Origin: Peptococcaceae bacterium BICA1-7
GTDB lineage: Bacteria; Bacillota; Desulfotomaculia; Desulfotomaculales; Desulfocucumaceae
Assembly (NCBI GenBank): GCA_000802095.1
Contig: JUEB01000026.1
Location: 372,001 to 436,000 of the forward strand
Direction of reading: 5' to 3'
Length of the DNA: 64,000 nt
In this document: positions 4,701 to 17,778 of the stretch, piece after piece
Layout of the letters: each line of letters opens with the position of its first letter
Numbering within the stretch: the first letter of the stretch is position 1
Program-made: the position numbers and the translations under genes
The notes under the pieces: generated by a model
Seen by the model: only the letters and a program-made list of their open reading frames with translations
Told to the model about the DNA's origin: nothing
The model's database searches: none

Positions 4701-5969
4701 CTATCTTCTTATGGTGGCCTTTTGACCTATATCCCTGCGGCAGTGGGCGCCCTCAAAGCTTATGGCCTCCACTCCCCGATAGGCCAGGCTTATGGCCGAC
4801 GGGATGTCCGCCCCCCTGGCGGTAACCCCCAATACTCTTCCCCCGTCTGTAACAATCTTTCCTTCCCTTTCAGCAGTGCCGGCATGAAAAACGGTTACTC
4901 CCTCCGGGACCCTGTCCAGCCCGGTTATTTCAATGCCTTTGCCGTAAGCCCCGGGGTAGCCTCCCGATGCCATGACCACACATACCGAGGCGCCCTCTTC
5001 CCACTCAATATTTATATCCTTAAGCCTTTTGTCAATAACAGCGTCCATTATATCCACCAGGTCAGTTTTAAGCATCATCAGCACCGGCTGAGCCTCCGGG
5101 TCTCCAAAGCGGGCATTATACTCAAGCACCTTGGGCCCCTCAGCGGTAACCATCAGCCCGGCATACAGCACCCCGCTGTAGGGCCTGCCCTCGGAGGCCA
5201 TGGCCGCCACGGTGGGCTGCAGAATTTTCTCCAGTGCATATTTATACAGCTCAGGCGTGCACACCGGCGCCGGGGCATAGGCGCCCATCCCTCCGGTGTT
5301 GGGGCCCTTGTCCCCGTCGTACACCTGCTTGTGATCCTGGGCAGGCAGCATGGGCGCCACGGTAATCCCATCTGTAAAGGCCAGAATGCTTACTTCCTCA
5401 CCTGTTAAAAGCTCCTCTACCACTACCTTGTCCCCGGCGCTGCCAAAGGCCCTGTCATCCATAATCTGAACAATGGCCTCTAGAGCCTCTTCAGTTGTCC
5501 CGGCCACTATAACTCCCTTGCCTGCGGCCAGCCCGTCGGCCTTTACAACGCAGGGAGAGGAAAGGCTTTTTATGTACTCTACGGCCTCCCGCCTATTTTC
5601 AAAAGACCTGTAGCCGGCGGTGGGTATACCGTATTTGGCCATTATGTCCTTGGAGAGCACCTTGCTTCCCTCTATGGCCGCAGCTGAGGCCCTGGGCCCA
5701 AAAACTCTAATCCCATGCGCCTCCAAGGCGTCCACCAGGCCCCGGGTTAGGGGGTCCTCCGGGCCTACCACAGCCAGGTCAATACCCTGGTTATAAGCAA
5801 AGGTTACCAGCCCGTCAATATCAGCGGCCTTTATCCCCACACACTCCGCAACCCCTGTTATTCCAGCGTTTCCCGGAGCGCAATATATCTTGGACACCCT
5901 GGGGCTCTGACTTATTTTCCAGCAGAGAGCGTGCTCACGCCCCCCTCCACCGACAACTAATACTTTCAT
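4701..5969 (-). CDS. purD: Phosphoribosylamine-glycine ligase (GARS)
   Basis: Joins 5-phosphoribosylamine and glycine with ATP to give GAR, step 2 of purine synthesis. 422 residues, the usual length for a stand-alone GARS. Seen: N-terminal GGGGREHALCWKI; ATP-grasp region with VVKADGLAAGKGVIVA (about residue 140); DHKQVYDGDKGPNTGGMGAY (about 230-255); NARFGDPEAQPVL metal-binding segment (about 295). The open frame extends further upstream to 6083, through the dispersed repeat, but ATG 5969 with AGGAGG 10 bases before it is the clear start. Last gene of the pur operon, separated from purH by a 232-base gap filled by a dispersed repeat. Confidence 0.97.
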   Translation of the reverse strand: MKVLVVGGGGREHALCWKISQSPRVSKIYCAPGNAGITGVAECVGIKAADIDGLVTFAYNQGIDLAVVGPEDPLTRGLVDALEAHGIRVFGPRASAAAIEGSKVLSKDIMAKYGIPTAGYRSFENRREAVEYIKSLSSPCVVKADGLAAGKGVIVAGTTEEALEAIVQIMDDRAFGSAGDKVVVEELLTGEEVSILAFTDGITVAPMLPAQDHKQVYDGDKGPNTGGMGAYAPAPVCTPELYKYALEKILQPTVAAMASEGRPYSGVLYAGLMVTAEGPKVLEYNARFGDPEAQPVLMMLKTDLVDIMDAVIDKRLKDINIEWEEGASVCVVMASGGYPGAYGKGIEITGLDRVPEGVTVFHAGTAEREGKIVTDGGRVLGVTARGADIPSAISLAYRGVEAISFEGAHCRRDIGQKATIRR

Positions 5970-6011
5970 CTGCCACAAACCTCCTAATTGGCTAATGCTG
6001 CATTTCATAAA

Positions 6012-6182
6012 GGTCGGGAGACTGCTCATAAGAATGGACTTCGGGTCGGGAGACGGGAGACGGGAGACGGGAGGTCCAGGCATTCCTAATAAGATTTTAT
6101 AACGACCTCAGAGTTTGGCATACCAAACTCCCGTCTCCCGACAGTAAGTAATACCTCTGAGCAGTCTCCCGTCTCCTGACCT
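6012..6182 (-). repeat. Dispersed repeat family A, copy 1 (between purH and purD)
   Basis: An intergenic element built around runs of the 7-mer GGGAGAC, four tandem units at 6050-6075, and an opposing CTCCCGTCTCCCGAC block. Read on the minus strand, it aligns over about 200 bases with the element at 19070-19295: shared landmarks in order are GGAGACTGCTCA, ATTACTTACTGTCGGGAGAC, GTATGCCA, a GACCT/GGTCG block, AGGAATGCCTGGACCTCC, runs of GTCTCC, and ATGCAGCATTAGCC. It carries no open reading frame of its own. The two copies lie in opposite orientation in the window. It looks like a non-coding mobile (MITE-like) or amplified element. Confidence 0.75.
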
Positions 6183-6201
6183 GATGTACTACCCTTAAGC
6201 C

Positions 6202-7743
6202 CTAATGTTTAAAATGCCTATACCCGGTCAAAACCATTATTATTCCGTGCTTTTCGGCAGCCTTCACCGACTCCTCGTCCCTCACCGATCCGCCTGGCTG
6301 AATAATGGCCTTTATACCTGCCTTTGCCGCCAGCTCCACTGTGTCGCCGAAGGGGAAGTAGGCGTCAGATCCAAGATAGGCCCCTTTTGCCCTGTCTCCT
6401 GCCTGGGTCATGGCAATACCGGCTGACCCCACACGGTTCATCTGCCCGGCCCCTACACCGATAAGCTGCCTGTTTTTGGTTATCACTATGGCGTTGGATT
6501 TGACATGCTTAACCACAGTCATGGAGAAGATAAGCTCTTCCAGGTCCTCCTGTCCGGGCTTTACCGAGGTTGCCACATCCAGGTGATCCCTGTCCAACAG
6601 CTTTCTGTCGGTTTCCTGCATCAGCAGGCCGCCGTTAACCTTTCTTAAATCCAGCCTGTCACCGGCCGGCCCCTCAAGGCTGCCTGTCTCCATTACCCGC
6701 AGCCCCGATTTGCCCCCTAAAATCTCCAGGGCATCTTTACTGTATCCGGGAGCGATAACTGCCTCCAGAAATATTTCGGCCATCAGCCTGGCCGCCTCTG
6801 CGGTAACCTCTCTATTACAGGCCACTATTCCGCCATAGGCTGAAACCGGGTCCCCTTCATAGGCCAACCTGTAAGCCTGGGCTATATCACCTGCGCAGGC
6901 CGCCCCACATGGGTTATTGTGCTTTATTACCACCGCCGCCGGGTCTGTAAACTCCCTCACCAGCTCCAGAGCTGCGTTCAGGTCCAGTATATTGTTATAG
7001 GACAGCTCCTTGCCGGCCAGTTGCCTGGCTGAGCTGACCGAAGCCCCGTCCGAGGCCGGGTCCCGGTAAAAGGCCGCCTGCTGGTGGGGATTCTCTCCAT
7101 ACCTGAGCACCTGGGCCAGCTCAAATGGCTTGCTCCACACAGCCGGGAAAAGGCTCTCTTCCTCTTTGGACTGTTTTTCCAGGTAGGCGGCTATGGCCGT
7201 GTCATAGGTGGCTGTATGGGCAAAGGCCTCCCTGGCCAGGGCCAGCCTGAAGGCATAGTCATCCTTACCGCTCTCCAAAGCCTTTAAAACATCTCCGTAT
7301 CTGTCGGGGTTTACCACTACCAGCACGTAACTGTGGTTTTTGGCCGCCGCCCTGACCATGGCCGGACCGCCTATATCAATGTTTTCCACAGCGTCCTCCA
7401 GGGTAACACCGGGCTTTGCTATTGTTTCCCTGAAAGGGTAAAGGTTTACCGCCACCAGATCTATATAGCCAATACCCTGCTTTTCCAGCTGCCCGGCATG
7501 GTCCGGTGTTCTCCTGGCCAGTATTCCTCCGTGCACGGAAGGATGCAGTGTCTTCACCCTGCCGTCCAGTATTTCCGGAAAACCGGTAACACTGGTTATG
7601 TAGGTAACAGGCACTCCGGCCTCCTTGAGAGCTTTGGAGGTCCCCCCGGTGGATACTATTTCATAGCCCTTTTCCACCAGACCCCTTGCGAAATCCACCA
7701 ACCCGGTCTTGTCTGACACGCTGATTAACGCCCTTTTGGCCAT
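6202..7743 (-). CDS. purH: Bifunctional AICAR transformylase / IMP cyclohydrolase
   Basis: Carries out the last two steps of IMP synthesis: formylation of AICAR by 10-formyl-THF and ring closure of FAICAR. 513 residues, standard length. The N-terminal IMP cyclohydrolase (MGS-like fold, about 1-190) has [18 protein letters not shown] and [14 protein letters not shown]; the C-terminal transformylase (about 200-513) has [11 protein letters not shown], the catalytic KHNNPCGAA, and [19 protein letters not shown] followed by [15 protein letters not shown] 7743 follows GGGGTGA. In the pur operon 29 bases behind purN. Confidence 0.98.
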
Positions 7744-7772
7744 TTCATTTCACCCCATTTATATTACAGTTT

Positions 7773-8396
7773 TTACTGCCCACTTCCATCCAAAACATGC
7801 ACTTTTTTCCCATCAATGCGCAATCGCCCCTCGGCAAACAGCTTAACTGCCTGGGGGTATATAATGTGCTCCTGCTCCAGTATCCGGGAGGACAGGTCCT
7901 CCTCACTGTCTCCGGACAGCACCGGCACTGCCGCCTGAATTATTATCGGCCCGGTATCCATTCCGCCGTCTACAAAATGAACTGTGCAGCCGCTTATCTT
8001 CACCCCGTACTCCAACGCCTGCCTCTGTCCGTGCAGCCCTTTAAAGGACGGCAGCAGCGCCGGGTGAATATTCATTATTCTATCCGGGAAGGAATCCAAA
8101 AGCACCCCTCCCACCAGCCTCATATAGCCGGCCAGGCACACCAGTTCCACCCCGTACTCCCTCATCTCCAGCACTATCCTGTGCTCGTACTCCTCTTTAG
8201 TCCCATAATAAGACGGGTGTATGTGCACTGCCGGAATACCGTGCTGCCTGGCCCTGTCCAGGGCATAGGCCTCAGCCCTGTCGCTTACCACCACGGTCAC
8301 CTGGGCCGGCGCCTCCCCGATTGAGCAGGCGTCAATAATGGCCTGCAGGTTGGAGCCCCGGCCCGAAGCCAGCACTCCAACTCTGAGTTTTCTCAC
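7773..8396 (-). CDS. purN: Phosphoribosylglycinamide formyltransferase (GART)
   Basis: Transfers a formyl group from 10-formyl-THF to GAR, giving FGAR (step 3). 207 residues. Seen: VGVLASGRGSNLQAII (phosphate-binding N-terminus), VCLAGYMRLV, the NIHPALLPSFKGLHGQ catalytic segment (Asn-His near residue 110), and GCTVHFVDGGMDTGPII with the catalytic Asp near 145. The start is GTG 8396 with GGAGGTGA 8 bases upstream. 18 bases separate it from purM, so the two are surely co-transcribed. Confidence 0.97.
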   Translation of the reverse strand: MRKLRVGVLASGRGSNLQAIIDACSIGEAPAQVTVVVSDRAEAYALDRARQHGIPAVHIHPSYYGTKEEYEHRIVLEMREYGVELVCLAGYMRLVGGVLLDSFPDRIMNIHPALLPSFKGLHGQRQALEYGVKISGCTVHFVDGGMDTGPIIIQAAVPVLSGDSEEDLSSRILEQEHIIYPQAVKLFAEGRLRIDGKKVHVLDGSGQ

Positions 8397-8414
8397 CGGC
8401 TATTCACCTCCAGC

Positions 8415-9464
8415 CTACCTGTATATTACACACTTTTTAGATGATTCAACAATTTCACCAATAATATAGGCCTCCTCGCCCCGATCCCGGAGGTCCTTTT
8501 GTATACTTGCCGCCTCTCCGGCGCCGGCCACCAGCACCAGACCTATGCCCATATTAAAGGTTTTAAGCATTTCTTCCTCATCCACACTGCCTATTTTCTG
8601 AATGAGGCTGAATACCGGCGGGATCTGCCAGGTTTTTCTGTCCAGGGCCGCAGCCACGCCGGACGGCAGTATGCGGGGAATATTTTCAGTAAGCCCTCCC
8701 CCTGTGATGTGGGCCATGCCCTTTATGGAAAAGCTGGACAGCAGGGGAAGCACAGCTTTTACATAAATCCTGGTGGGCTCAATAAGCTCCTCACCCACAG
8801 TTCTCCCCAGCTCATCAATATAGCTGTCCACACCATACCCGGCCACCTCAAAGACAGTCTTTCTGGCCAGTGAATAACCGTTGCTGTGCAGCCCCGAGGA
8901 GGGAATGCCGATTATAGCATCCCCGGCCTTTATTTCCGATCCGTCCACAATGCGGCTCTTCTCAACAATCCCCACCACAAAACCGGCTATATCGTACTCA
9001 TCTTCACCATAAAAGCCCGGCATTTCCGCGGTTTCCCCGCCAATCAGGGCGCATCCCGCCCTTTTGCAGCCCTCGGCCACCCCTGATACTATGGCCGCCA
9101 CTTTTTCAGGCACCAGCTTTCCCACTGCCAGATAGTCAAGGAAGAACAGGGGCTCAGCCCCTTGCACCAGCACATCATTGGCGCACATGGCCACCGCGTC
9201 AATACCTATGGTGTCATGCCTGTCCACCATCATGGCCACCCTCAGCTTGGTGCCCACTCCGTCTGTCCCCGAAACCAGCACCGGCTCCCGGTAGCGTGAC
9301 GGGTCCAGGGCGAAAAGCCCTCCGAAGCCCCCTATGTCTGCCATAACCCCGGGGCGGAAGGTGCTTCTCACCGACTCCTTCATAAGCTCAACAGCCCTGC
9401 CGCCGGCCTCAATATCTACACCGGACGAAGCATAGGTAAGCTTTTCATTTTTTTTCAAAGCCAT
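8415..9464 (-). CDS. purM: Phosphoribosylformylglycinamidine cyclo-ligase (AIRS)
   Basis: Closes the imidazole ring of FGAM with ATP to give AIR (step 5). Seen: [19 protein letters not shown] at the N-terminus, [47 protein letters not shown] and [11 protein letters not shown], followed by [13 protein letters not shown] in the C-terminal domain. 349 residues from the ATG at 9464, which has AGGTGG 8 bases before it. An in-frame ATG at 9485 overlaps the purF stop as ATGA and would add 7 residues; translational coupling from there is possible, but the internal site has the better ribosome binding site and the more typical N-terminus. Confidence 0.96.
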
Positions 9465-9481
9465 ATACTCTTTACCACCTG

Positions 9482-10888
9482 TCATTCCAGTGAAAATTTA
9501 CCGGCTTCCTTCGGCTTAAATACCTCAACAGGGTATTTGCCGTCAAAACACGCGGTGCAAAAGTTTTCCCGGTATTTCCCGAAAATATTCAGCAGTCCGT
9601 CAATGCTCAGATAGTGCAGCCCATCCACCCCAATCAGAGATTTTATCTCGTTGACCGATTTGTGAGCCGCCACCAGCTCACCTTCGTTGGAGGTGTCTAT
9701 GCCATAATAGCAGGACTTTATTACAGGAGGCGAGCTGAGGCACAGGTATACCTCTTTTACTCCCGAGTCCCTGAGCATCTTAACAATTTTTTTGCTGGTG
9801 GTGCCCCTCACCAGGGAGTCATCCACCATCAGCACCCTTTTCCCTTCCAGCATGTACCTCATGGGATTCAGCTTGAGCCTCACTCCCATATCCCTCATAT
9901 CCTGGTTTGGCTGGATGAAGGTCCTGCCAATATACCTGTTTTTCATAAGTCCCTCTTCAAAGGGTTTTCCCGACTCTTCGGCATAGCCCCTGGCAGAAGT
10001 GGTGCCGGAGTCAGGAACCGGTATCACCAGGTCTACATCCACCGGAAACTCCCTGGCCAATTGCCTGCCCATTTCCCTTCTGACCTGGCTGACATGAAAG
10101 CCGTCCATTTCACTGTCGGGCCTGGCAAAATATATATACTCAAATATACAGTGTGCCTTTTTGCGCTGGGAAAGGGCACTCATGGACCTAATTCCCTGAT
10201 CGTCAATGATTACTATTTCCCCCGGCTTTATATCCCTTACTTTTTTTGCTCCCACAGTATCCAGGGCGCAGGACTCAGACGCCACCACGTAGGCGTCACC
10301 CAGTTTGCCCAGGCAGAGAGGACGGAAGCCGTAGGGGTCCCTTACCGCAATAAGGCTGTCTTCAGTTATTATTAAAAGTGAGTACGCCCCCTTGACATCA
10401 ATCATACACTTGGCCAGGGCCTCTTCCAGGGCGTTCTGGCTGTACCTGGCGATAAGATTTACAATTACCTCGCTGTCGGTGGTGGACTGAAACACAGATC
10501 CGGTGGAGGTAAGCTGATTCCTTAAATCCCATATATTTGTTATATTCCCATTATGGGCCAGGCCCAGTGTTCCCCGGGCGTATCTGAATACCAGGGGCTG
10601 AGCGTTGATAGGCTGGCTGGAGCCGGTGGTGGAGTATCGGACGTGCCCCACAGCAATGTGCCCGGTCATTTTTTCAAGTGTTCCCTGCCCGAACACCTCC
10701 GGGACCAGTCCCATATCCTTGTGCAGCATCACTTTGCCACCATCAGAAACGGCTATTCCTGCGCTTTCCTGGCCCCTGTGCTGCAGGGCATAGAGTCCGT
10801 AGTAAGTTATTCTGGCCACATCCAGATTTTTTCCATATACTCCGAAAATACCGCACTCTTCCCTCGGCTTGTCGATATCCGATAGCAT
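9482..10888 (-). CDS. purF: Amidophosphoribosyltransferase
   Basis: First committed step of purine synthesis: PRPP plus glutamine to phosphoribosylamine. Ntn-type glutaminase with a short propeptide; the catalytic Cys in [10 protein letters not shown] becomes the N-terminus after removal of about 11 residues. Further landmarks: [30 protein letters not shown], the PRPP-binding [16 protein letters not shown] (about residue 345), and Cys residues near the C-terminus ([11 protein letters not shown] and others) suiting the iron-sulfur cluster of the B. subtilis type. About 468 residues. ATG 10888, with GGGGGG 6 bases upstream, is preferred over ATG 10894, where the purine-rich tract abuts the start. 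The neighbour upstream is purC, not purL as in Bacillus. Confidence 0.97.
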
Positions 10889-10930
10889 GCCCATCCCCCC
10901 ATAACGAACAATTTTTACCTGAAGTATTGG

Positions 10931-12238
10931 CTAGGCCCCTGCCCCGTTTAACCTGAAGTAATCTTCCAGGGTGCTATTTTCCTCATAATACTGTATTTCA
11001 TTCAGGGCTATGGACTTAATTTTTTCGTTGGTGTCCGGGGCGCTGGACTGCCCGTATATATAAGAGACCAGGGCATTGAATTTGTCTTCCTGCAGGGAAA
11101 TAAACCTTCCGTCAACAACCGGCGTTACAGGGTAGTATCCCTTTTCCTGTCCTTCCTTCAGATGAACAAGGAAGGACTGCCCCGATACCGCCGCCTCCTT
11201 CTTGGCCTCCCTGGTGGCTTCAAACCATTTGGGGTGCATTATTTTATAATAGTCCCGCATGGACTGCTTATTGATGCTGACATAGTAAGACCTGTCCCGG
11301 TGAACCACCTCAGTGGTCACCCTGATGGAGTCTGTATCTATAGTATCCACAAAAACCAGCCTGTCTCCATCCCTGGCTATCTCCCACTTAAGGTCCCACA
11401 AAAAGAGGCCCAGCCTGCCAAAGTACCGGTGCACCAGCACTGATCCCAGAATGCTCATCCTTATAACGTCTAAGAGCGTCTCTCCTCCACCCCCACAGAT
11501 ATACAGGGCCTCCTGGAGACTTAAGTTTCTGTCCTCGGGCTCGTACTTGGTGGTGAAGTCCACTGTGGGAACTGAAAAGGGCGACCAGGGAACCATTTCT
11601 TCTTTAAGCCCCAGTTCCGCAAGATAGCCTTTGCGGCTCTTTTCATCCATGCCCGAATATTTCCTGTACACCGAAGACCCGGGCACCACCCCGAAGCGAA
11701 CAATGTTTTCCAGGGGCACAACATACCTGTCGGCACTGCTGTATTGGCTGTAATCCCACAGGTTATTGGCAAAATGCCTCAATCTCCGGGGCTTCATTAC
11801 CTTATACTTCTTAACCATCACAAAGGGACTGGGAGCTGATGGAAAAGAATTCCCCAGCACCTCACCTGTTTGTCCGTCGATCATGCCGGCGTGGTGGGTG
11901 TCTGCGCCGCTTTCGGCATAGCGATCCAGCAGCCTCCCCTGTAGAAAATTAAGAAACTCCTCATTTCCCGCGAACATTCCCGGCAGATCTTTTTTTATCC
12001 CGGCCCACTCCTCCTTGGATCCCAGCAGTGTATATATGCTGTGCCGGATGGCAGTTCTGCTGGTATCACTGCCTGGAATGGAAAATATAGTGCCCACATC
12101 AAAAACAGATCCCCCGGAGGTAGTCCTGCAGACCATGTATTCAGGATACTCGCTGCAGTTATAAAGCTGCTGGACCGACCCGTTATAAACCGGCTCTTCA
12201 TTTTCATATCTGGAAAGGTCTATTTTGCTGCTAAACAA
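10931..12238 (-). CDS. purC: Divergent, long SAICAR synthetase-like protein
   Basis: Probably joins CAIR and aspartate with ATP to SAICAR (step 7). Weak but ordered similarity to PurC: FDVGTIFSIPG in the N-terminal part (cf. SDRISAFDV in PurC), YVVPLENIVRFGVVPGSSVY (cf. PVECIVRGYLAGS), PTVDFTTKYE (cf. PLVEFTxK), and LFLWDLKWEIARDGDRLVF followed by DTIDTDSIR (cf. DFKLEFG...DEISPD.CR). At 435 residues it is much longer than the 235-300 of common PurC. No other purC candidate is in the window, and the position between purB and purF is where purC lies in Firmicutes operons. The start is TTG 12238 with AGGTG 7 bases before it. The activity is inferred from motif order and context; a paralogue with another amide-bond substrate is possible. 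Confidence 0.72.
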   Translation of the reverse strand: MFSSKIDLSRYENEEPVYNGSVQQLYNCSEYPEYMVCRTTSGGSVFDVGTIFSIPGSDTSRTAIRHSIYTLLGSKEEWAGIKKDLPGMFAGNEEFLNFLQGRLLDRYAESGADTHHAGMIDGQTGEVLGNSFPSAPSPFVMVKKYKVMKPRRLRHFANNLWDYSQYSSADRYVVPLENIVRFGVVPGSSVYRKYSGMDEKSRKGYLAELGLKEEMVPWSPFSVPTVDFTTKYEPEDRNLSLQEALYICGGGGETLLDVIRMSILGSVLVHRYFGRLGLFLWDLKWEIARDGDRLVFVDTIDTDSIRVTTEVVHRDRSYYVSINKQSMRDYYKIMHPKWFEATREAKKEAAVSGQSFLVHLKEGQEKGYYPVTPVVDGRFISLQEDKFNALVSYIYGQSSAPDTNEKIKSIALNEIQYYEENSTLEDYFRLNGAGA

Positions 12239-12287
12239 AGTATTTCACCTCAGATCAAAATATCGGAATTGGGAATTGGGGGAGCAC

Positions 12288-12420
12288 AAAAGCCACCCCG
12301 ATCGGGGACATTCCTTGGTTTTCAGCGCCAGACCATTAAAGTTAGGTATGTCCATCCAGATCGGGGACATTCCTGTCCACAAAGTAATGCCTCATCTTCA
12401 GCAGGTGTGTCCCCATTCAT
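12288..12420. repeat. Dispersed repeat family C, two partial copies (purB-purC gap)
   Basis: The 184-base gap between purB and purC contains GATCGGGGACATTCC twice (12300 and 12359 regions) and GGTGTGTCCCCATTC near 12403-12418. The same words, inverted, occur in the pur leader (14621-14690) and, more diverged, at 17640-17700. Paired GGGGACA...TGTCCCC ends suggest a small non-coding element inserted within the operon. No reading frame of interest. Confidence 0.6.
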
Positions 12421-12422
12421 TG

Positions 12423-13715
12423 TTACAGCCCGAACCGGCTGAATATCTCATCCACTCTGCCCAAATGGTAGCTGTAGTCAAACAGTCCTTCCAATTCTTC
12501 CCCGCCCAACAGTGACATCACTTCAGAGTCTTCCCTGAGGAGAACTTTAAAGCTCTTTCGGCTCTTCCATGACTCCATGGCGTTTCTCTGCACCAGCTCA
12601 TAGGCCCTTTCTCTGGTAATACCCTTATTGACCAGGGCCAGCAGAACCCTCTGTGAAAAAAGCAGGCCCCCGGTGAGCTCCAGGTTCTTTTGCATATTCT
12701 CAGGATATATAAGAAGGTTTTTCATCATGGCTGTAAACTTGTAAAGCATGTAGTCAAGCGCAGTGGTGCTGTCAGGAATAATCACCCTCTCCACCGATGA
12801 GTGGGAAATATCCCTTTCATTCCACAGGGCCACATTTTCCATGGCTACCAGTGCATTACCCCTTAACAGCCGTGCCATTCCGGTTATCCTTTCGGCGGTT
12901 ATGGGGTTGCGCTTGTGAGGCATGGCGGAAGATCCCTTCTGCCCTTTGGCGAAAAACTCCTCGACCTCCAGTATTTCAGTTCTCTGAAGGCTGCGTATTT
13001 CGGTGGTGAACTTTTCCAGAGAGCTGCCCACTATGGCCAGGGTTGTAAGAAATTCGGCATGGCGGTCCCGCTGCACCACCTGGGTGGAGATGCTGGCCGG
13101 GGCCAGTCCCATTCTTTTACACACATGTGCCTCCACCGCAGGGTTGATGTTGGCGTAAGTCCCCACTGCCCCGGAAATCTTTCCGACACTCACCGACTGC
13201 AGTGCCCTTTCCATTCTGTCGATGTTTCTTTCAGTTTCTGAAGCCCATAAAAGCATCTTCAGCCCGAAGGTAATGGGCTCGGCATGCACCCCGTGGGTCC
13301 TTCCCATCATTATGGTATTCCTGTGCTGAGCAGCTTTTTCCAGCAGAACAGGCTTAAGCTCCTTAAGCTTTGACAAAACCAGCTCCCCGGCCTCTTTCAT
13401 TTGGGCCGCCAGGGCGGTATCCAGCACGTCGGACGAAGTAAGGCCCATGTGTATATATTTGGAGTCCTCCCCCACATACTCTGCCACACATGTTAAAAAG
13501 GCAATCACATCGTGGTTGGTTACCGCCTCAATCTCGTCAACCCTCTCCACGGTGAAATTAGCCTTTTCCTTTATTATCTGCAAAGCGCCGGATGGCACCA
13601 GGCCCAGGTCGGTCATAGCCTCGCAGGCATAAATCTCCACATCCAGCCACTTACGGTATTTATTTTCCTGGGACCATATTTTCTTCATTTCAGGCAGGGT
13701 ATAGCGCTCAATCAT
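12423..13715 (-). CDS. purB: Adenylosuccinate lyase
   Basis: Releases fumarate from SAICAR (step 8) and from adenylosuccinate (AMP synthesis). 430 residues, standard for the Bacillus-type enzyme. Seen: [15 protein letters not shown] start, HDVIAFL near residue 68, [15 protein letters not shown] (about 90), [15 protein letters not shown] with the catalytic His (about 140), and the fumarase-superfamily signature [12 protein letters not shown] (about 262) carrying the mobile catalytic serine loop. Starts at ATG 13715, 29 bases behind purE; a CTGCAGGCCTCCAAT-type ribosome binding site (GGAGG on the minus strand) precedes it. Confidence 0.98.
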
Positions 13716-13744: not shown

Positions 13745-14260
13745 TTATGAGCTAAGATACTTTTCAGCTCCCATTGTCCTCAGCCGGGCATCCTTTTCCT
13801 CCACCCCGGCAGCAAGTGATTCCTTGTATTTTTCTATCCTGCCTCTCATGTCAGGATCACCTGCCCCTATTATCTGAGCAGCCAGTATACCGGCATTTTT
13901 GGCTCCGTTTATAGCTACCGTGGCCACGGGTATGCCGGCCGGCATCTGCACAATGGCATAAAGAGCGTCAACTCCGCTCAGAGCCCCGGACTTTATGGGC
14001 ACTCCGATAACCGGAAGAACAGTAAGGGAGGCAATCACCCCGGGCAGGTGGGCAGCCCCTCCGGCTCCGGCAATAATAGCTTTAAGCCCCCTACCTGCTG
14101 CATCCCTGGCATATCCGGCAGTCTTTTCCGGCGCCCGGTGGGCTGATGAAATGACCATTTCGTATGCAATTCCCAGTTCTTCCAGCATATCAGCCGCATC
14201 TTTCATCACCGGCAGATCGGAGTCACTCCCCATAACTATTCCAACCAGTGGATCACCCAT
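13745..14260 (-). CDS. purE: N5-carboxyaminoimidazole ribonucleotide mutase
   Basis: Rearranges N5-CAIR to CAIR (class I PurE). 171 residues. Seen: [18 protein letters not shown] (phosphate/CAIR binding), [13 protein letters not shown] with the catalytic His, [14 protein letters not shown], and [19 protein letters not shown]. First structural gene of the pur operon, behind an 480-base gap and leader. ATG 14260 follows AGGAGG. No purK partner is adjacent in the window, so N5-CAIR must be made by a gene elsewhere, or this PurE uses CO2 and AIR directly (class II); the sequence was not analysed finely enough to decide. Confidence 0.97.
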
Positions 14261-14511: not shown

Positions 14512-14577
14512 AAAATTAAAAAAGCCCGGAAAACAGGTTTACTCAGTAATAGAGAAACCCTGCCGCCTGGGCTTTTA
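14512..14577 (-). terminator. Second terminator-like hairpin in the pur leader
   Basis: Read on the minus strand: AAAAGCCC, an inner arm CAGGGTTT, a loop, AAACCTG, then GGGCTTTTTTAATTTT. The outer arms (AAAAGCCC/GGGCTTTT) and the inner arms pair, and a long U-tract follows, as in an intrinsic terminator. It lies about 160 bases after the riboswitch and about 250 bases before purE, so polymerase must read through it to reach purE unless an unseen promoter lies below. It may be a second attenuator or a repeat-borne hairpin. Confidence 0.55.
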
Positions 14578-14620
14578 CCCCTGTCGGTGTAACTCCTGAT
14601 GAAGACACGCCTGATTAAGG

Positions 14621-14690
14621 AATGGGGACACACCTCTCTTTAGGGTATTACTCCTCAGTCAGAGGAATGTCCCCGATCGGTATTATAGTG
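14621..14690. repeat. Dispersed repeat family C copy in the pur leader
   Basis: GGGGACACACCTCTC (from 14625) and AGAGGAATGTCCCCGATCGG (to 14680) flank a short centre, giving an inverted-repeat-ended unit of about 60 bases. The same words occur inverted at 12288-12420 and in degenerate form at 17640-17700. It lies between the two terminator-like structures of the pur leader. Confidence 0.6.
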
Positions 14691-14735
14691 ACACTCTTTT
14701 TAAGGTATCACTCGATGAGTCCCTGATCATTATAT

Positions 14736-14823
14736 TAAAAAGTGGCGGGCCTTTTCAGGTGTCTGTGCCGCTCGGACCATGCCGCCCGCTATTAGAGCGG
14801 ACGCGGAACCCTAAGGCACACTT
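14736..14823 (-). ncRNA. ykkC-family riboswitch, probably PRPP type, with overlapping terminator
   Basis: On the minus strand, 15 bases after the promoter start point, lie CTTAGGGTTCCGCG and GGTCCGAGCGGCACAGAC, the conserved words of the ykkC aptamer family. Stem P1 is GCCTT (14813-14817) with AAGGC (14749-14753); stem P2 is CCGCT/AGCGG with a 5-base loop. An alternative stem, GCGGGC (14784-14789) with GCCCGC (14745-14750), is followed by a run of five Ts (14737-14741): a terminator that uses the 3' arm of P2 and part of P1, so ligand-stabilised P1/P2 should prevent termination (an ON switch). ykkC subtypes sense guanidine, ppGpp, PRPP or (d)ADP; PRPP members control de novo purine genes, which follow here. 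Subtype is inferred from context. Confidence 0.8.
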
Positions 14824-14838
14824 TCTCGAATCAATTGT

Positions 14839-14867
14839 ATCATAACAATAGAGGCATTGGGTGTCAA
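14839..14867 (-). promoter_or_regulatory. Sigma-A promoter of the pur operon
   Basis: Minus strand: TTGACA (14862-14867), 17-base spacer, TATGAT (14839-14844). This is a near-consensus promoter. Start of transcription is expected near 14832, just ahead of the riboswitch. The leader to purE is then about 570 bases. Upstream, the palindrome CACTG/CAGTG (14886-14901) might be a weak terminator or operator. Confidence 0.85.
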
Positions 14868-15371: not shown

Positions 15372-15408
15372 AAAAAGCCCGGATTCCAGTGTGGAATCCG
15401 GGCTTTTT
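15372..15408. terminator. Strong bidirectional terminator
   Basis: A 17-base perfect inverted repeat, AAAAAGCCCGGATTCCA with its complement, around a 3-base loop, ending in T-runs on both strands. It serves the small plus-strand genes and guaA on the minus strand (stop at 15418). Confidence 0.92.
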
Positions 15409-17637: not shown

Positions 17638-17778
17638 AAGGAATAGGGACAAACCTCTCCAGTGTAATTTCCTGGTGGGAGTCAGAGGAATGTCACCAAT
17701 GCTGCTTTTCGGCTTGAAATTCTGATTTCTGAATTCTCTATTCTGGATTCCGACCGAAGGCGCTCACAGTATTAGTTT
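17638..17778. repeat. Dispersed repeats of families C and B
   Basis: 17638-17702 carries a degenerate family C unit (AATAGGGACAAACCTCTCC to CAGAGGAATGTCACC). 17714-17752 carries the family B block (AAATTCTGATTTCTGAATTC, TATTCTGGATTCCGACC), followed by CACAGTATTAG. The same order, C block near B block with a CAGTATTAG end, occurs in the pur leader. Confidence 0.6.

Follow-up and report, generated by a model that had tools for sequence, protein, structure and literature searches.

A predicted PRPP riboswitch with a REP-like palindrome in its outer hairpin ahead of the purine operon of Peptococcaceae bacterium BICA1-7

The stretch of DNA analysed here, hereafter the window, comprises 64,000 nucleotides of Peptococcaceae bacterium BICA1-7 (contig JUEB01000026.1 of assembly GCA_000802095.1, positions 372,001 to 436,000 of the forward strand), and carries on its minus strand the operon purEBCFMNHD for de novo purine synthesis, preceded by a leader of about 14867-14518 from promoter through terminator (Table 1). 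From its sequence this leader is very probably a singlet riboswitch for phosphoribosyl pyrophosphate (PRPP), subtype 2b of the ykkC class, acting by an ON mechanism and carrying an outer hairpin lengthened by a repetitive extragenic palindromic (REP) element. The original prediction for this locus, made from the letters alone, had proposed a PRPP-type ykkC riboswitch with its promoter at 14736-14867. The promoter TTGACA-17-TATGAT was recovered at 14867-14839 (11/12), as were the ykkC words and the stems P1 and P2, all on the minus strand, and the expected pur operon follows in the order purE-B-C-F-M-N-H-D. The proposed interval covers only the 5′ half of the element, and P3 and the 3′ strand of P0 (14592-14552) were missed.

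No match to Rfam was obtained at curated thresholds across the window, while at loose thresholds the guanidine-I model (RF00442) aligned with 14826-14752 at 23.7 bits, where the cut-off is 63, covering only P1 and P2. The folding z-score over the interval of the original prediction was uninformative (z -0.73). We built a covariance model, R1, from 45 aligned PRPP aptamers of other genomes, which were gathered from genome contigs using a pattern for the 3′ motif and from which the window and its genus were left out; covariation was seen in P1, P2 and the outer hairpin of these seeds. In a scan of the whole window R1 gave a sole match, the full-length aptamer at 14830-14550 of the minus strand (73.4 bits, E 1.6e-19), with standard base pairs at 28 of the 30 consensus positions and with an insertion of 159 nt in the outer hairpin [note that unfiltered or genome-wide scans give two separate half-matches, which the default window scan joins]. 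The orthologous leader precedes purE in eight relatives and is closed in each by the same 3′ motif, UUACACCGACAGGGGUAAAAGCCCAGGCGGCAGGGUUUCUC, which in the window (14592-14552, minus strand) follows P1 at a distance of about 170 nt. The two aptamer ends are joined by the P0 helix, GAGAAA (14827-14822) pairing with UUUCUC (14557-14552).

In the numbering of the crystal structure, G96 distinguishes PRPP aptamers from those for guanosine tetraphosphate (ppGpp), and a pyrimidine at position 49 distinguishes both from guanidine-I aptamers (PMC6031431). After placing this numbering on the window by our own mapping, anchored at C75-A76-C77 and A103-G104-G105, we found C49 at 14770 and G96 at 14567, within CCCAGGCGG. 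Since G96 and the 3′ strand of P0 both lie outside the interval first proposed, the subtype could not be decided from that interval. With the known PRPP riboswitch of subtype 2b (PMC5912903, PMC6031431) the window shares P0, P1, P2, P3, G96, C49, C75, A76 and C77, together with the purine operon, a terminator overlapping P3 and the singlet form; it differs in having the REP element within a peripheral hairpin of about 170 nt and an extra G in the strand of G104 and G105. The words of P1 and P2 are common to guanidine-I riboswitches, but these carry A at position 49 and no P0, in contrast to the window, and its score against RF00442 stays below the cut-off.

The intrinsic terminator at 14576-14518 (-24.3 kcal/mol, against -26 to -32 in the relatives) includes in its 5′ arm the 3′ strands of P3 and P0, and because of this overlap PRPP is predicted to switch the operon on, an arrangement as in singlet PRPP riboswitches (PMC5912903). 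In unconstrained folding the aptamer-length transcript forms P0, P1, P2, the REP-bearing outer hairpin and P3, while the full leader folds to the terminator, the optimum being more stable than the constrained ON state by 10.8 kcal/mol. The ON logic of the original prediction is in good agreement with the overlap and with these folds, and control of the de novo purine genes through a terminator competing with P3 is likewise predicted. The transcript would begin a few bases ahead of P0; P1 and P2 would fold first, and the REP-lengthened outer hairpin would then fold on itself before P3 and the 3′ strand of P0 emerge to complete the pocket. In the PRPP-bound state, P3 and P0 would retain the strand AAAAGCCC-AGGCGG-CAGGGUUUCUC, so that the terminator is blocked and the operon is read, whereas without PRPP the same strand would pair downstream into the terminator, leading to transcription stop. 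As stated originally, no guanine aptamer stands in tandem: Rfam scans of the window detected no purine riboswitch, and there is no room for a guanine aptamer between the promoter and P0, the PRPP-type aptamer beginning 8-9 nt past the -10 box.

Within the outer hairpin lies a REP-like palindrome of about 70 bp, belonging to a repeat family of which 76 matching pieces occur in the own genome, 29-54 in each of four relatives and 4 in one more; these five relatives are members of the same taxonomic family, and none of the other nine genomes searched has the repeat. The copies have the common ends CCGATCGGGGACATTCCT and AGGTGTGTCCCCATTCC, and a short palindrome in so many dispersed copies is what defines a REP-type element. 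Among 70 aptamers the hairpin between P1 and P3 measures 11-100 nt, except for 129 nt in genome G002 and 172 nt in the window. The element is present at the same site in G002, which with a PurB identity of 94.9% is the nearest relative, and absent from the site in G001 (PurB 87.2% identical); this pattern is read most simply as a single insertion in an ancestor that the window genome shared with G002. The REP would have landed in the apical part of a hairpin tolerant of length change, and the switch would thereby have survived. No REP-associated tyrosine transposase was found next to REPs: the five Y1_Tnp genes of the own genome (loci L070-L074) have no REP words within about 1.5 kb, save one 8-mer. 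A candidate for a second, degenerate REP at about 14727-14685 was not above chance, 81 of 1000 shuffles being equally good. REP-like words of the same family were also noted at 12304-12375 (the gap between purB and purC) and at 17685-17697 (near the gene upstream of hpt), indicating several copies in the region.

Conservation between the window and G002 is unevenly distributed. Identity is 92.5% in the promoter and 91.3% in the 5′ half of the aptamer, and all 41 aligned bases of P3 and the P0 3′ strand are the same, while it falls to 79% for the outer hairpin and 70% for the third positions of purE codons, and further to 65% in the spacer and 35% in the upstream region. The stem below the REP reads CCUGA/UCAGG in the window and CCUAA/UUAGG in G002, the other REP-bearing genome, the change being compensatory. 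Though the numbers are small, all have the same direction, and they point to a switch that outlived the insertion and whose core is still under selection.

Table 1. Features of the pur leader and of the operon downstream, in window coordinates.
Feature	Position	Strand	Remark
Promoter TTGACA-17-TATGAT, 11/12, TG ahead of -10	14839-14867	-	Kept in relatives before the same aptamer
P0 5′ strand GAGAAA (A5 = 14822; next G6 = 14821)	14822-14827	-	R1 and folding; numbering of PMC6031431
P1 (UGUGCC/GGCACA), P1a/P1b, P2; G48 = 14771, C49 = 14770	14764-14820	-	R1 and folding
Expanded peripheral hairpin of about 170 nt, linking P1 and P3; its stems are CCUGA/UCAGG and AAGGCCCGCC/GGCGUGUCUU	14593-14762	-	
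REP-like palindrome ATACCGATCGGGGACATTCCTC...GAGGTGTGTCCCCATTCCTTAAT, within the peripheral hairpin	14614-14683	-	
P3, conserved ACACCG and GCCCAGGCGG; C75 = 14589, A76 = 14588, C77 = 14587, G96 = 14567	14563-14592	-	Numbering of PMC6031431
Joining strand CAGGG (positions 101-105), one G above the CAGG of close relatives	14558-14562	-	
P0 3′ strand UUUCUC	14552-14557	-	R1 and folding; overlooked in the original prediction
Intrinsic terminator AAAAGCCC...GGGCUUUUUU; 5′ arm includes P3 and P0 3′ strands	14518-14576	-	
purE, first gene of the controlled operon	13745-14260	-	
purB, purC (divergent), purF, purM, purN, purH, purD	4701-13715	-	

Other explanations were weighed against this assignment. 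A ppGpp riboswitch (subtype 2a) standing by chance ahead of purine genes would share the overall fold and P0 with the window, and R2, a model built from 23 ppGpp-type aptamers of related genomes, does detect the aptamer at 48.7 bits; this score is 24.7 bits below that of R1, the two models not being mutually calibrated, and the PRPP-type relatives give the same ranking. Native ppGpp aptamers are without G96 (PMC6031431), which is missing in all 23 of the above set, mostly being replaced by A, and other genes follow there, such as an ilvE-type gene here (locus L041), while purE follows all eight orthologous leaders. Because G96 is present and the operon is purEBCFMNHD, PRPP is preferred over ppGpp, and the latter is extremely improbable; in the comparison of subtype models proposed at the outset, the window scores 73.4 bits for PRPP, 48.7 for ppGpp and 23.7 for guanidine-I. 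Equally improbable is the mechanism first suggested for the switch, in which a terminator made of GCGGGC/GCCCGC and a run of five T competes with P1 and P2. The six-base complement and the T-run do exist in the sequence, but the hairpin is weak (-14.7 kcal/mol) with a gap of 3 nt before the T-run, it appears in no predicted fold of the leader, the T-run is missing in the relatives, and GGCCCGCC pairs inside the outer hairpin, of which this segment is a part. This candidate was dismissed; the terminator competing with P3 and P0 lies about 170 nt further downstream.

Two observations weigh against a working PRPP switch. The window has the lowest R1 score among the PRPP- and ppGpp-type aptamers found whole by the model, and its pocket strand reads CAGGG before UUUC where the genus has CAGG, turning AGG into AGGG in the strand A103-G104-G105. 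With a search pattern leaving the position free, A precedes GGUUUC in 87 of 88 aptamers, and G only in the window. G104 and G105 contact PRPP and A103 packs on G105 (PMC6031431), and the extra G may weaken PRPP binding; its effect may also be offset by the canonical three-base spacing, or the base may reflect a sequencing error. That the REP and the extra G together broke PRPP sensing, leaving a decaying relic with constitutive, partly terminating expression, agrees with this unique change in the ligand-binding strand and with the terminator being weaker than those of the relatives, but we consider it unlikely, since the other pocket residues checked, P0, the promoter and the terminator are all retained, core conservation after the insertion stays well above that of third codon positions, and the CGG-CAG-GG spacing of 3 nt is the commonest length in the class. 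A further reading, that the mobile palindrome has become a working part of the aptamer and, with the AGGG pocket strand, shifts PRPP sensitivity or the timing of purine control, appears quite improbable. Its recruitment into the mechanism, for instance as a pause site or as a folding-time delay tuning the switch, would fit with retention at the same site in two species and with the compensatory change in the flanking stem; it is nevertheless judged very improbable, because the REP has diverged more quickly than the core of the aptamer (82.6% against 91-100% identity), as a passive insert would, and the length of the linker is freely variable across the class. The reading that we prefer is a PRPP riboswitch to which the REP would be neutral.

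Some observations concern other PRPP leaders and the surroundings of the operon. The PRPP aptamers in the records of Thermotalea and Anaerosolibacter (L077, L115) carry about 100 nt of additional P2 sequence, and two Desulfosporosinus leaders (L112, L126) retain P3 and the P0 3′ strand with a 5′ half changed by a long extra sequence, perhaps an insertion. Two genomes of the same family (G004, G005) gave no match to the PRPP model though their neighbours have one, reflecting loss or assembly gaps. The divergent PurC of the operon (10931-12238) is long, 435 aa, and scores 51 bits against a curated purC cut-off of 189.9, the Pfam domain SAICAR_synt covering only residues 172-341. A very strong terminator hairpin of 17 bp at 15372-15408 (AAAAAGCCCGGATTCC/GGAATCCGGGCTTTTT) stands just downstream of guaA, before the pur leader.

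The riboswitch itself is of a known class and no new mechanism is indicated; the REP within an aptamer still under selection is the sole unusual part. In our literature search for a REP or a miniature inverted-repeat transposable element inside an aptamer none was found, the only related case being that of the pneumococcal trp operon, where a BOX element separates two T boxes (PMC3049150). BOX is likewise a dispersed repeat in an apparently functional riboswitch leader, but the repeat stands there between two riboswitches, whereas in the window it stands inside one aptamer. The locus offers a natural example of a dispersed repeat residing in a ligand-binding RNA that apparently withstood it. 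It further illustrates how riboswitches of this sort get missed or split, the Rfam model staying below its cut-off and covariance searches being liable to separate the two halves. As the REP is shared by a sister species and absent in a congener, the cost of the insert would be directly measurable.
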